Below, piece by piece: positions 17,352 to 22,732 of a stretch of DNA of 64,000 nucleotides. The stretch is from Pseudomonas lurida (lineage in GTDB: Bacteria > Pseudomonadota > Gammaproteobacteria > Pseudomonadales > Pseudomonadaceae). The stretch spans positions 1-64,000 of the forward strand of contig NZ_JAAMRE010000030.1 in NCBI RefSeq assembly GCF_013522705.1, written 5' to 3'. Both the position numbers and the translations under genes were made by a program. Position 1 is the stretch's first letter. The number at the start of each line of letters is the position of its first letter. Below the pieces are notes generated by a model, which was not told the DNA's origin, did no database searches, and worked only from the letters and a program-made list of their open reading frames with translations.

Positions 17352-18203
17352 ATGGCGACACTTCACGCGAACACCGTTCAGGCGCTGCAAACCAACAAAC
17401 TCAGCCTGTTGAGCACATGGATCGAAAGCCTCGAGGCCTCGGGTGCCACCCGTAACGTCAAGGAAGCCGAGCTGAAACAACAGGCCAACGACTTCCTGAG
17501 CACACTGATTGCAGCCTTGGAACAAGGCGGTTCGCAGAACGTCAACCACGAGAACTGGGCCGAAACCCGCGTGCTCCTGGAAAAGCTGTCCCATAGCCGC
17601 GCGCTGGTCGGCCAGGACTCGCAACAGACCGCCAGTTTCATCTTCGCGCTCAAAGGCCCGCTGTTCGCCCTGCTGCAACGCGAATACGTCGAACAGCCGG
17701 CGCAACTGGCCGAACAGCTGTGGGAAATTTCCGAGCTGCTCGATGCCCTCGGCATGCACACCATTCGCACGTTCCAGAAGTCCCGTGAACTGGTGATCAA
17801 GCGCCAGCAGGAAGAACTGCTCGAACTGTCCACGCCGGTGGTCAAACTGTGGGATGGCGTACTGGCCCTGCCGATGATCGGCACCCTGGATTCCCAGCGC
17901 ACCCAGGTGGTGATGGAGTCGCTGCTGCAACGCATCGTCGACACCGGCGCGGAAATCGCAATTATCGACATCACCGGTGTGCCGACCGTCGATACCCTGG
18001 TGGCCCAGCACCTGCTCAAGACCGTGACCGCCATTCGCCTGATGGGTGCCGACTGCATCATCAGCGGCGTGCGCCCGCAGATCGCCCAGACCATCGTGCA
18101 CCTGGGCCTTGACCTGCAAGGCGTGGTCACCAAGGCCAATCTGGCCGACGCCCTGGCCCTGTCCCTCAAGCGCCTGGGCGTGACCGTGACCAAGGCCGTC
18201 TGA
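17352..18203 (+). CDS. RsbR-type stressosome co-antagonist
   Basis: This 283-residue protein has a helical N-terminal globin-like sensor domain (about 1-150) and a C-terminal STAS domain (about 165-275). The join, ELLELSTPVVKLWDGVLALP, is highly conserved in RsbR proteins, and IIDITGVPTVDTLVAQHL is the STAS phospho-acceptor segment, with T208 and T212 candidates. An AGGAG site precedes ATG 17352. In Bacillus, RsbR and RsbS form the large stressosome that holds the kinase RsbT until stress. The next gene begins only 3 bases after its stop, so this is the first gene of a six-gene operon. Confidence 0.9.
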   Translation: MATLHANTVQALQTNKLSLLSTWIESLEASGATRNVKEAELKQQANDFLSTLIAALEQGGSQNVNHENWAETRVLLEKLSHSRALVGQDSQQTASFIFALKGPLFALLQREYVEQPAQLAEQLWEISELLDALGMHTIRTFQKSRELVIKRQQEELLELSTPVVKLWDGVLALPMIGTLDSQRTQVVMESLLQRIVDTGAEIAIIDITGVPTVDTLVAQHLLKTVTAIRLMGADCIISGVRPQIAQTIVHLGLDLQGVVTKANLADALALSLKRLGVTVTKAV

Positions 18204-18205
18204 TT

Positions 18206-19967: not shown

Positions 19968-20823
19968 CACCACTGCCTCGCTCGCCGCTGAGGTGCAACG
20001 CCTGCGCCAGGAAGCCGACGCCTTGCGCGCCGAGCTGGATGAAACCAACCAGGGCGTGCTGGCGCTGTATGCCGAGCTGGACACCCAGGCCGACCAACTG
20101 CGCCAGGCTTCGGACCTCAAGAGCCGTTTCCTGTCGTACATGAGCCATGAGTTCCGCACGCCGTTGGGCTCGATCCTGAGCATCACCAGCCTGCTGGACG
20201 ATGAACTCGACGGCCCGCTCAGCCCTGAGCAGCACACCCAGGTGGGCTTTATCCGCAGCTCGGCGCGGGAACTGCGCGAGATGGTCGATGACCTGCTGGA
20301 CCTGGCCAAGATCGAGGCCGGGCGCATCAGTATCTCCCCGGCCTGGTTCGACATGTTCGACCTGTTTTCGGCGCTGCGCGGCATGTTCCGGCCGATTGTC
20401 GATGCCTCGGCGGTGGACCTGATCTTCGAAGAGCCGGCCGGCCTGCCCAAGCTGTACACCGATGACAAGAAGCTCGCGCAGATCCTGCGCAACTTTATCT
20501 CCAACGCTCTGAAGTTCACGCTGCAGGGTGAGGTACGCGTGTCGGCGTGCATGGAGAACGAGCGGGAGATCCGCTTCGCGGTGCAGGACACCGGCCTGGG
20601 TATCCCGGTCGAACTGCACAGCAATCTGTTCGAGGACTTTTCCCAGATCGACTCCCCGCTGCAGAAGCGCCTGCGCGGCACCGGGCTGGGACTGTCACTG
20701 TGCAAGCGCTTCGCTCAATTGCTGGGTGGCCGGGTCGGCGTGGAGAGCAAGCCCGGCGTGGGTTCGCTGTTCTATGTGGTCATTCCTCTTTCCATCGCCA
20801 ACGAGATCGTCGATGAAACGTGA
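19960..20823 (+). CDS. Cytoplasmic sensor histidine kinase
   Basis: This 287-residue protein has no membrane helix. An N-terminal coiled coil (about 8-50) leads into a HisKA domain with the phospho-acceptor in YMSHEFRTPLGSIL and a HATPase domain with NFISNALKFT, DTGLGI and GTGLGLSLCK. ATG 19960 is preceded by GGAGG, 7 bases upstream, and overlaps the end of the phosphatase gene. A soluble kinase placed after RsbRST suggests it is gated by the stressosome rather than by a periplasmic signal. Its stop overlaps the hybrid kinase gene by 11 bp. Confidence 0.88.
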   Translation: MADTTASLAAEVQRLRQEADALRAELDETNQGVLALYAELDTQADQLRQASDLKSRFLSYMSHEFRTPLGSILSITSLLDDELDGPLSPEQHTQVGFIRSSARELREMVDDLLDLAKIEAGRISISPAWFDMFDLFSALRGMFRPIVDASAVDLIFEEPAGLPKLYTDDKKLAQILRNFISNALKFTLQGEVRVSACMENEREIRFAVQDTGLGIPVELHSNLFEDFSQIDSPLQKRLRGTGLGLSLCKRFAQLLGGRVGVESKPGVGSLFYVVIPLSIANEIVDET

Positions 20824-22732
20824 CATCCAAGTGTTGATCGTCGACGACAACGTTGCCACGCGCTACGCCCTGCGCCGGCGCCTGGAAAACCATCACTATC
20901 GGGTACTGGAAGCCGGCACCGGCCAGGACGGTCTGGACCTGATCGCCAGTCGCACCATCGATGCGCTGATCCTGGACGTCAACCTGCCGGACATGAGCGG
21001 TTTCGATATCGTGCGCGGCCTGCGCGCCGACCCCGCCACCGCGTTGCTGCCGGTGGTGCATGTCTCGGCGGCGTCGATCGAGACCGGCGATATCATCACC
21101 GGCCTGGACGCCGGCGCCGATGCGTACCTGATCCATCCGGTGGACCCGGAGGTGCTGCTCGCTACGCTGCGCACCTTGTTGCGCGTACGCGACACTGAAT
21201 ACGCCTTGCGCGAAAGCGAAGCGCGTTTTCGCGAGATTTTCTTCAACATCAGCGCGCCCATCGCGGTGATGGACGCGCACCTCAAAGTCCACGAATGCAA
21301 CCATGCCTTCGCGCAGCTGATCCACGCCAACCTCAACCCCGACGCCCTGCTGGAATGCTTCGCCACCGATCAATTGGCCGTGATCCAGGAGCTATGCCTG
21401 CGCCTGGCCGCCGGTGAACGCTGGAAAGGCACGTTATTGATGAAGGTCGACGACCAGCTGCGCGAGACCGAATGGCAGATTTCGCCTTACCGTAGCGCCG
21501 GCCTCAGCCTGGTGTTCGTGGAGGACGTCACCGAGCATCGTCATCGCGAACGTCATCAACAGGCCGAACTGGCCAATGCCGCGAGCCAGTTGGCCCGCAC
21601 CGAGGCGCAGTTGCTGCAGGCGCAGAAAATGGATGCATTGGGCAAGCTTACCGGCGGCATCGCCCACGACTTCAACAACCTGCTGACCGGGATCATCACC
21701 AGCCTGGAGCTGATCAAGAAACGCATTCAGAGCCAGCGCACCGACAAGGTGCTCAATTATGCCGACGCCGCGCTGAACTCCGCCCTGAGCGCCGCCGGCC
21801 TGACCAACCGCTTGCTCGCGTTCGCACGCCAGCAGCCGCTGGACACCCGCCCCACCGATATCAATGCGCATATCCGCTCTCTGGAAGAGCTGCTGATGCG
21901 CACCATCGGCGAACACATCGTGCTGAATCTGGAGCTGACCACCCACCCCGCCGTGGCGCTGGTCGACCCGATCCAGCTGGAAAGCTCGGTGCTCAACCTG
22001 GTGATCAACGCCCGAGACGCCCTGCCCCAGGGTGGCGTCATCTGGGTAACCACGTACCCTGCGCATTCCACCGGCAACCCCAAGCTGGAAAACGGCCCGT
22101 ACATTGCGTTGTCGGTACGCGACAACGGCGTGGGTATCGAGCCCGGCGTGATCGACAAAGTGTTCGACCCGTTCTTCACCACTAAACCGGTGGGCCAGGG
22201 CACCGGCCTGGGCCTGTCGACCATCTATGGGTTCGCCCGCCAGTCCGGCGGCGATGCGCAGATCCGCAGCGTGACCCGCCAAGGCACCGAAGTGACCATC
22301 ATGCTGCCCGCCGCCGACGGCCCGGCCGCCCTGGCCACGAAGGTCGAGGCCGTGCCAGGGGTGAGCAACGGCGAGCACATTCTGGTGGTCGAAGACATGC
22401 CTTCGGTGCGTGGTTTCGTGGCTGAAGTGCTGGTGGATGCTGGTTATCGCTGCAGCCTGGCCGCGGACGGTGACGAAGCCATCGCCATGCTGCGAGCCGA
22501 TCCGACGATCGATCTGCTGCTTACCGATTTCGGGCTGCCGTACATGACCGGCCGCGAGCTGGCCGATCATGCGCGGGATCTGCGCCAGGAATTACCGATC
22601 CTGTTCATGACCGGTTACGCCGAGAATGCGGCGAACCGCCAGGATTTTCTCGGCGAACGCATGGACCTGATCACCAAGCCGTTTCATATCGATCAATTGC
22701 TGGAAAAAATCCGCCACGGCCTGGAGGTTTGA
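20813..22732 (+). CDS. Hybrid protein: receiver - PAS - histidine kinase - receiver
   Basis: The true start is ATG 20813, giving MKRDIQVLIVDDNVATRY; the longer frame from 20528 runs through the preceding gene. The domains in order are an N-terminal receiver (about 5-120, phospho-acceptor D55 in LILDVNLPDMSG), a PAS-like domain (about 135-245), HisKA with GGIAHDFNNLLTG (about 280), HATPase (about 385-500, NARDAL, DNGVGI, GTGLGLS), and a C-terminal receiver with LLLTDFGLPYMTG. The N-terminal receiver probably accepts phosphate from the upstream kinase. No DNA-binding or diguanylate cyclase domain is present, so the final output is not visible here. Confidence 0.88.
   Translation: MKRDIQVLIVDDNVATRYALRRRLENHHYRVLEAGTGQDGLDLIASRTIDALILDVNLPDMSGFDIVRGLRADPATALLPVVHVSAASIETGDIITGLDAGADAYLIHPVDPEVLLATLRTLLRVRDTEYALRESEARFREIFFNISAPIAVMDAHLKVHECNHAFAQLIHANLNPDALLECFATDQLAVIQELCLRLAAGERWKGTLLMKVDDQLRETEWQISPYRSAGLSLVFVEDVTEHRHRERHQQAELANAASQLARTEAQLLQAQKMDALGKLTGGIAHDFNNLLTGIITSLELIKKRIQSQRTDKVLNYADAALNSALSAAGLTNRLLAFARQQPLDTRPTDINAHIRSLEELLMRTIGEHIVLNLELTTHPAVALVDPIQLESSVLNLVINARDALPQGGVIWVTTYPAHSTGNPKLENGPYIALSVRDNGVGIEPGVIDKVFDPFFTTKPVGQGTGLGLSTIYGFARQSGGDAQIRSVTRQGTEVTIMLPAADGPAALATKVEAVPGVSNGEHILVVEDMPSVRGFVAEVLVDAGYRCSLAADGDEAIAMLRADPTIDLLLTDFGLPYMTGRELADHARDLRQELPILFMTGYAENAANRQDFLGERMDLITKPFHIDQLLEKIRHGLEV

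Follow-up and report, generated by a model that had tools for sequence, protein, structure and literature searches.

The window analyzed here is a 64,000 nt stretch of Pseudomonas lurida DNA (contig NZ_JAAMRE010000030.1, assembly GCF_013522705.1). It contains a six-gene stressosome operon at positions 17352–22732, and the soluble histidine kinase encoded by the fifth gene has a conserved 17-residue element in its N-terminal linker (consensus ELxxTNxGVxALYxEL). Conservation of this linker motif is about equal to that of the catalytic boxes of the kinase. A stressosome-controlled kinase module, in which free RsbT would switch the soluble kinase through the motif, is given slightly better than an even chance on the basis of sequence comparisons and of analogy with stressosomes of other bacteria. 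The motif is strong as a pattern and unproven as a mechanism. The genes of the operon and the motif are as follows:

17352–18203, + strand: RsbR, 283 amino acids (aa); helical sensor RsbRD_N and STAS domain (Pfam, phmmer, AlphaFold)
18206–18568, + strand: RsbS, 120 aa; single STAS domain (Pfam, phmmer)
18565–18969, + strand: RsbT, 134 aa; GHKL switch kinase (Pfam HATPase_c, residues, tree)
18960–19967, + strand: GHKL-PP2C fusion, 335 aa; second GHKL domain and RsbX-type phosphatase
19960–20823, + strand: soluble histidine kinase, 287 aa; HisKA and HATPase_c, His63; proposed RsbT target (Pfam)
20032–20082, + strand: linker motif ELDETNQGVLALYAELD, kinase residues 25–41; proposed RsbT docking or switching element
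20813–22732, + strand: hybrid kinase REC-PAS-HisKA-HATPase-REC, 639 aa; Asp55, His285, Asp572 (Pfam)

Conservation of the linker motif

Linkers of histidine kinases are usually variable. Twenty-four residues of the soluble kinase precede ELDETNQGVLALYAELD, and in the 33 window-like loci that were read these residues vary while the motif is nearly constant. No RsbU_N domain is detected in the kinase by Pfam. A larger set of loci was found through RsbS and consists of the best 80 of 555 candidates (the named loci below; loci and genomes are cited by L and G numbers). The kinase has the motif in 79 of these 80; in L152 the kinase frame as found begins after the motif.

The 13-residue segment TNQGVLALYAELD ranks second in conservation among 263 overlapping 13-residue windows in an alignment of 11 kinases, whose loci all came from searches with RsbR or RsbS. 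The ranking rests on these 11 because eight of the kinases in a wider set of 19 had been fetched with the linker itself. Mean entropy is 0.43 bits for TNQGVLALYAELD, 0.42 for the H-box window and 0.44 for the N-box window, with a median of 1.1 (n = 11). Five motif positions are fixed in the pattern that served to locate the kinase segments. When they are left out, the mean over residues 25–41 is 0.71 bits; the H-box has 0.50, the N-box 0.46 and the median window 1.1. Residues E25, Y37 and E39 are invariant though they lie outside the five fixed positions, and the motif Thr is constant in 11 of 11 rows. A flexible hinge at TNxG was also considered and was dropped, since the AlphaFold model of the kinase (predicted local distance difference test, pLDDT, 80.9; predicted template modeling score, pTM, 0.72) shows one helix over residues 2–81.

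Distribution of the motif

Eleven linkers from stressosome loci were made into a 47-position motif model (A2), with which 398 Pseudomonadota genomes were searched. The model gives 17 matches at E <= 1e-5, one per genome and all of at least 74 bits, and all 17 lie no more than about 2.5 kb from the RsbS gene of the genome. By this model the motif is absent from all 368 genomes that have no RsbS match; divergent motifs elsewhere could be missed, because A2 was built from stressosome linkers and because, in many genomes, scoring with it was confined to 17 of up to 44 first-look candidates. In the genome of the window, where all 48 candidates were scored, A2 matches the kinase at 95.6 bits and the next place at 19.8 bits. 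RsbU_N is found in nine of the 398 genomes and in two of the 30 RsbS-positive genomes, and it is absent from all 17 motif genomes. When 274 genomes sampled at class level were searched, the only results were the genome of the window and two matches of 24–25 bits that cover model positions 24–47 and are not the motif.

Plasmids were searched with a 36-residue peptide. Of 72,556 records 24 match, 15 of them from D. radiodurans; the other nine are from two other Deinococcus, two Variovorax, Caballeronia, Xanthomonas vasicola, Sphingomonas, Embleya and Nonomuraea. All 24 motif records lie in stressosome loci, and 23 have an RsbS match at the same locus. The adjacency of RsbS and motif in D. psychrotolerans spans the record start, with the record taken as circular, and the 24th record (CP094464) has an anti-sigma regulatory factor and a phosphatase annotated upstream. 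The peptide search is insensitive, as four known Streptomyces phosphatases were missed. Among 18 distinct plasmid RsbS loci that were read, 13 have the motif and five do not. Eight of those 13 were fetched via the linker query, and the ten loci fetched via RsbS alone are divided equally, five with and five without the motif. The motif peptide has no match in phages, and viral contigs show one partial RsbS locus.

The whole operon is plasmid-borne in X. vasicola (29 kb plasmid pXVH29, L231) and in D. radiodurans MP1 (L228). In the Embleya (L233:4410–6176) and Nonomuraea (L234:4476–6140) kinases the motif is present as a tandem duplicate with 18-residue spacing. The idea that HAMP-type hybrid kinases bear the motif was not supported by scanning L235, L236 and the HAMP kinase of S. 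fungicidicus (L248). A weak motif-like N-terminus ahead of the GGDEF-EAL output in L204 (10 bits) was not counted.

Output proteins and the fused GHKL domain

The motif precedes an ordinary HisKA kinase in most loci and a CckA-type kinase in L196, L197 and L242. Two Streptomyces (L245, L246) have it ahead of a PP2C phosphatase and two more (L248, L249) ahead of a GAF-PP2C protein. The divergent loci of Pseudomonas, as well as Deinococcus, Sphingomonas, Caballeronia, other proteobacteria and two actinomycetes, have an output protein that starts with a GHKL domain, intact or degenerate, followed by a coiled coil with the motif. This fused GHKL is found with both kinds of motif kinase, HisKA and CckA-type. 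No GHKL domain is detected by Pfam in the four Streptomyces motif proteins; those of L245, L246 and L249 have weak matches of 17–18 bits to the RsbT model, and a degenerate GHKL is likely in these phosphatases.

In a tree built from 51 GHKL domains of 19 loci, with the degenerate fused domains left out, the RsbX-fusion GHKL (19 of 19, support 100/100) is separate from RsbT and the fused domains. The 13 fused domains form one clade (96/87), ten of them with the motif and three without it (L200, L241, L250). The clade adjoins 17 of the 19 RsbTs (92/81), and the RsbT of the window is in that RsbT clade. The fused GHKL appears to be a paralogue of RsbT that is sometimes degenerate.

On a tree of RsbS plus RsbT from 46 loci, the 16 motif kinases without a fused GHKL form one clade (95/91), which requires one change. 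The lineage of the window therefore probably lost the fused GHKL once and retained the motif, so that a GHKL partner would have to act in trans. Labels on this tree were set by hand and degenerate domains were counted as fused GHKL. The count omits L201–L205, L207, L243 and L247, which have no fused GHKL or have another output, and several motif-less rows (L202, L203, L204, L205, L207) have long branches.

The linker motif, with or without the fused RsbT paralogue, may represent a general and as yet unnamed stressosome output adaptor, for which the chances are judged about equal either way. It would give proteins of the RsbT family, next to RsbU_N, a second means of switching enzymes, one portable between two histidine kinase classes and PP2C phosphatases and present in Pseudomonadota, Deinococcota and Actinomycetota.

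Stressosome core, phosphatase and hybrid kinase

By sequence comparison RsbR and RsbS are STAS proteins with conserved phospho-acceptor positions, and RsbT retains the GHKL kinase residues. RsbR has an RsbRD_N domain (Pfam, 1.3e-19) in addition to STAS, and residues 10–268 align with Listeria RsbR by phmmer. Alignment with Listeria RsbR variants that differ at the first site (A, T or E) places S181 (Ser, not Thr) there and T215 at the second site. We take these two positions to be candidate phospho-acceptor sites. The AlphaFold model of RsbR (pLDDT 80.8, pTM 0.56) compares with the whole chain of 7b0u with a Z of 17.6 and a root-mean-square deviation (rmsd) of 5.1 over 263 residues. The sensor model is globin-like, with Z 13.4 and rmsd 2.5 over 131 residues for 2bnl and Z 12.5 and rmsd 2.5 over 134 residues for the haem globin sensor 4uiq, though such Z values are common among helical folds. 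Match lists from Foldseek and VIA consist mostly of STAS rows and are uninformative on other folds.

The closest match of RsbS is Listeria RsbS (phmmer, 8.5e-33). Its S57 is a candidate phospho-acceptor; it aligns with the Ser that is replaced by Ala in 9o4r and is invariant across eight alignment rows. RsbT has a HATPase_c domain (Pfam, 8e-13) and retains E47, N51 and D80.

The genome of the window has no RsbU_N match in a profile search and no SigB/F/G-type sigma factor over the cut-off (best match 135.9 bits, cut-off 234.35), as the sequence-only reading had supposed in noting the absence of sigma-B and RsbU. Further STAS and PP2C matches in this genome are on other contigs. That reading had concluded that RsbT must act on another partner, most likely the phosphatase or the kinases. 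The need for another partner holds, and so do the kinases as candidates, with the soluble kinase the best of them through its linker motif. The phosphatase is a doubtful candidate. Its gene shows no RsbU_N, and its PP2C domain is nearest to the RsbX type, a feedback type, which makes it an unlikely RsbT output; it was set aside on this ground. The domains of the fusion are:

19008–19340, + strand: HATPase_c_2 (Pfam)
19455–19943, + strand: SpoIIE domain (Pfam; 24.4 bits, just below the cut-off of 25)

A profile of 14 PP2C domains has its best matches in 3zt9 (4.2e-33), presumably the Moorella phosphatase, and in B. subtilis RsbX, 3w40 (4.6e-23), with SpoIIE and other SpoIIE-type phosphatases at about 1e-10 or weaker. 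Asp158, 175, 286, 321 and 322 of the fusion are invariant in the 14 sequences, and we take them to be the metal site. The GHKL domain of the fusion retains E51, N55 and D81. These comparisons identify the protein as the feedback phosphatase, of the RsbX type, to which a GHKL domain has been added. L201 and L203 instead encode the second GHKL and the PP2C in two distinct genes. In L206 (7567–8613, - strand) and L208 (2329–3372) an RsbT-like GHKL is fused straight to an RsbX-type PP2C, and no separate RsbT is present among open reading frames (ORFs) of at least 90 aa in these two loci.

Pfam matches in the hybrid kinase are REC, PAS, HisKA, HATPase_c and REC, of which PAS_4 at 19.9 bits is below the cut-off of 23.1. 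Its first receiver (window positions 20831–21169) retains Asp55 and has His108 in place of the conserved beta-5 Lys. His is found in all 76 first receivers that were aligned from the 80 named loci. Among motif loci outside the named set, the alignment of 17 first receivers shows no Lys (12 His, two Glu, and one each of Ala, Asp and Gln). Relatives in Pseudomonadota and Deinococcus have the same replacement of Lys by His. The Lys is present in the first receiver of L206, a stressosome locus without the motif, and in all 13 later receivers of named loci in which the column is aligned (69 not aligned). The substitution suggests that the step from the soluble kinase to the first receiver may be atypical, and a simple phosphorelay through the hybrid kinase seems doubtful. 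The two-component phosphorelay first proposed for this operon is accordingly retained for its components, the kinase and the REC-PAS-HK-REC hybrid, with the relay itself uncertain. Apart from the kinase domains themselves, Pfam detects no DNA-binding or enzymatic output domain in the two kinase genes.

Relation to known stressosome systems

An RsbRSTX module followed by a two-component output has already been published in Vibrio (PMC9237108, PMC10014275), which agrees with the initial remark that RsbRST modules with such outputs are known. As in RsbRSTX-D1-D2 of Vibrio vulnificus, the Pseudomonas operon has RsbR, RsbS, RsbT and an RsbX-type phosphatase directly followed by a two-component output, with no sigma-B. 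Vibrio RsbX is described as a single-domain PP2C, whereas the Pseudomonas RsbX-type protein carries a GHKL domain. The Vibrio RsbR sensor is described as a haem globin, whereas the Pseudomonas sensor is RsbRD_N by Pfam. The Pseudomonas kinase carries the linker motif, a possible further difference from Vibrio D1. The operon is of the RsbRSTX and two-component kind that is already known; what is new is the linker motif and its history of an RsbT paralogue.

The RsbR, RsbS, RsbT and RsbX families are shared with the RsbRSTUVW-SigB-X operon of Bacillus subtilis. The Pseudomonas genome differs in having neither RsbU_N nor a SigB/F/G-type sigma factor over the cut-off, and its outputs are histidine kinases. 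RsbU_N histidine kinases have been noted in proteobacterial stressosome loci (PMC9237108, PMC12143880). They resemble the Pseudomonas kinase in being an output directly after the stressosome genes and a proposed target of RsbT; the difference is that in Pseudomonas the linker motif, elsewhere with a fused RsbT paralogue, replaces RsbU_N. The stressosome of Moorella thermoacetica has a diguanylate cyclase output (PMC4976288, PMC12143880). It shares the RsbX-type phosphatase, as 3zt9 is the closest solved chain to the Pseudomonas PP2C, but its output is described as a cyclase with RsbU_N and not a motif kinase.

The action of RsbT on RsbU goes through a coiled-coil linker, and the same has been suggested for RsbU_N kinases (PMC12143880). 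Most of the downstream proteins considered by Heinz et al. are without RsbU_N, and the route of the signal is only suggested there (PMC9237108). The motif is a candidate answer to this published open question of how the signal reaches outputs without RsbU_N, and it would carry the idea of a coiled-coil linker beyond RsbU to kinases without an RsbU_N domain. It tells which residues to change, and it provides a sequence tag for stressosome outputs in genomes. Literature searches gave no paper on the motif or on a Pseudomonas stressosome by title or by start of abstract among the matches listed, which fits the earlier statement that the Pseudomonas circuit is little studied. A full-text search for ALYAEL gave three papers, none of them a signaling paper by title. 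Surveys by Pane-Farre and colleagues from 2005 and 2017, cited in the stressosome papers, may include some of these arrangements.

Proposed mechanism and alternatives

By analogy with Bacillus, Listeria and Vibrio, RsbR and RsbS would form a core that holds RsbT. Under stress RsbT would phosphorylate RsbR and RsbS and depart, and the RsbX fusion would reset the core. Free RsbT would bind the N-terminal coiled-coil linker of the soluble kinase at ELxxTNxGVxALYxEL and switch the kinase, a role corresponding to the job of Bacillus RsbT on the N-terminal domain and linker of RsbU. The soluble kinase could then act on the hybrid kinase with its atypical first receiver, and the final regulator would lie outside the operon.

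Several observations weigh against this mechanism. The motif is absent from 13 of the 30 RsbS-positive genomes. Nine loci from these genomes were read (L200–L208; G301, G416, G451 and G465 were left out), and their outputs are RsbU_N kinases (L201, L205), GGDEF-EAL proteins (L204, L208), a PP2C phosphatase (L202), a GHKL-HWE kinase (L200) and kinases without a recognized docking part (L203, L206, L207). Fusions of GHKL and kinase without the motif also exist (L200, L241, L244, L250). The RsbTs of L200 and L250 branch outside the group of RsbT plus fused domains, so the exact kinship of the fused domain is not fixed. The fused GHKL of L193, L229, L233 and L234 is without the N-box Asn (by eye), which implies that ATP binding is not needed there. 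The proposed single loss of the fused domain is not firm, since the outgroup that roots the tree did not form a single clade. In V. vulnificus positive results for an interaction of RsbT with D1 were not obtained (PMC9237108). The remaining points belong to three other explanations.

In the first, the partner of the kinase might be not RsbT but the GHKL domain of the RsbX fusion. It would dock on the kinase linker and couple the reset phosphatase to the kinase output, and RsbT would only phosphorylate the core. The fusion gene overlaps the kinase gene by 8 bp, its GHKL residues are retained as described above, and in the clade of kinases that lack their own GHKL, each of the 16 loci has this fusion. 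In the GHKL tree, however, the domain that is fused to the linker elsewhere groups with RsbT and not with the RsbX-fusion GHKL. Moreover, L201 and L203 encode the second GHKL in a gene of its own beside RsbX, and their kinase has RsbU_N (L201) or has neither RsbU_N nor the motif (L203). This explanation is considered improbable.

A second and similarly unlikely explanation is that RsbT transiently phosphorylates the kinase or the hybrid kinase on Ser or Thr, with the linker serving as a substrate or structural element and not as a docking site. Heinz et al. suggest phosphorylation by RsbT (PMC9237108), and the motif as defined includes the constant Thr. The persistence of the motif in the four loci where the GHKL before it lost the N-box Asn argues against this, but is not decisive because each of these loci has its own RsbT. 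Bacillus RsbT activates RsbU by binding (PMC12143880), which also stands against it.

In the third explanation the motif might serve dimer geometry only. It would be a mere coiled-coil element of an orthologous kinase family inherited with the operon, and the stressosome would reach the kinase otherwise or not at all. The predicted helix is consistent with this, since it runs unbroken through the motif (pLDDT about 81), and most motif kinases that were read are orthologues within one operon family. Such an element would not be expected ahead of another kinase class and PP2C phosphatases, where the motif also occurs, nor doubled at 18-residue spacing as in the two actinomycetes, and the probability given to this explanation is low.

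Spread of the operon and neighboring features

The six genes are separated by a gap of 2 bp and then overlap by 4, 10, 8 and 11 bp. ORF coordinates and Pfam domains thus bear out the six tightly packed genes, with gaps or overlaps of 2–11 bp, that were read from the sequence at first. RsbR is matched in 84 of 199 genomes of the genus, including the genome of the window; 83 matches span most of RsbR and one is a remnant. Gene content was read at 40 of the 84 places. All six queries match in the same order at 39 of these; 33 places have the same six genes as the window, and six have a variant in which the first kinase is longer and the last one shorter, with only the REC part of the hybrid matched. 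The remnant (L058:2400–3675) has the first 58 residues of rsbR adjoining the last part of the hybrid-kinase gene, with the genes between deleted and an in-frame stop within the RsbR match. The named loci are nearly all from Pseudomonas, with Luteibacter, Dyella, Stutzerimonas and others in addition. All six gene models are matched in 79 of the 80; L107 (12,765 bases) is without a hybrid-kinase match. The operon is not a chance arrangement.

A scan for promoters finds one sigma-70-like site, which is within rsbR, while shuffled sequences give a mean of 1.3. The gene upstream of rsbR is divergent:

16281–17192, - strand: LysR-type gene (Pfam)

In a Paraburkholderia plasmid (L241:9770–15960) katE and two Hsp20 genes follow the operon on the opposite strand, neighbors that hint at a stress-response setting. 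Downstream of the operon in the window, positions 25463–26067 have two small adjoining ORFs that resemble a HigB/RelE-type toxin and a helix-turn-helix antitoxin, as judged by eye.

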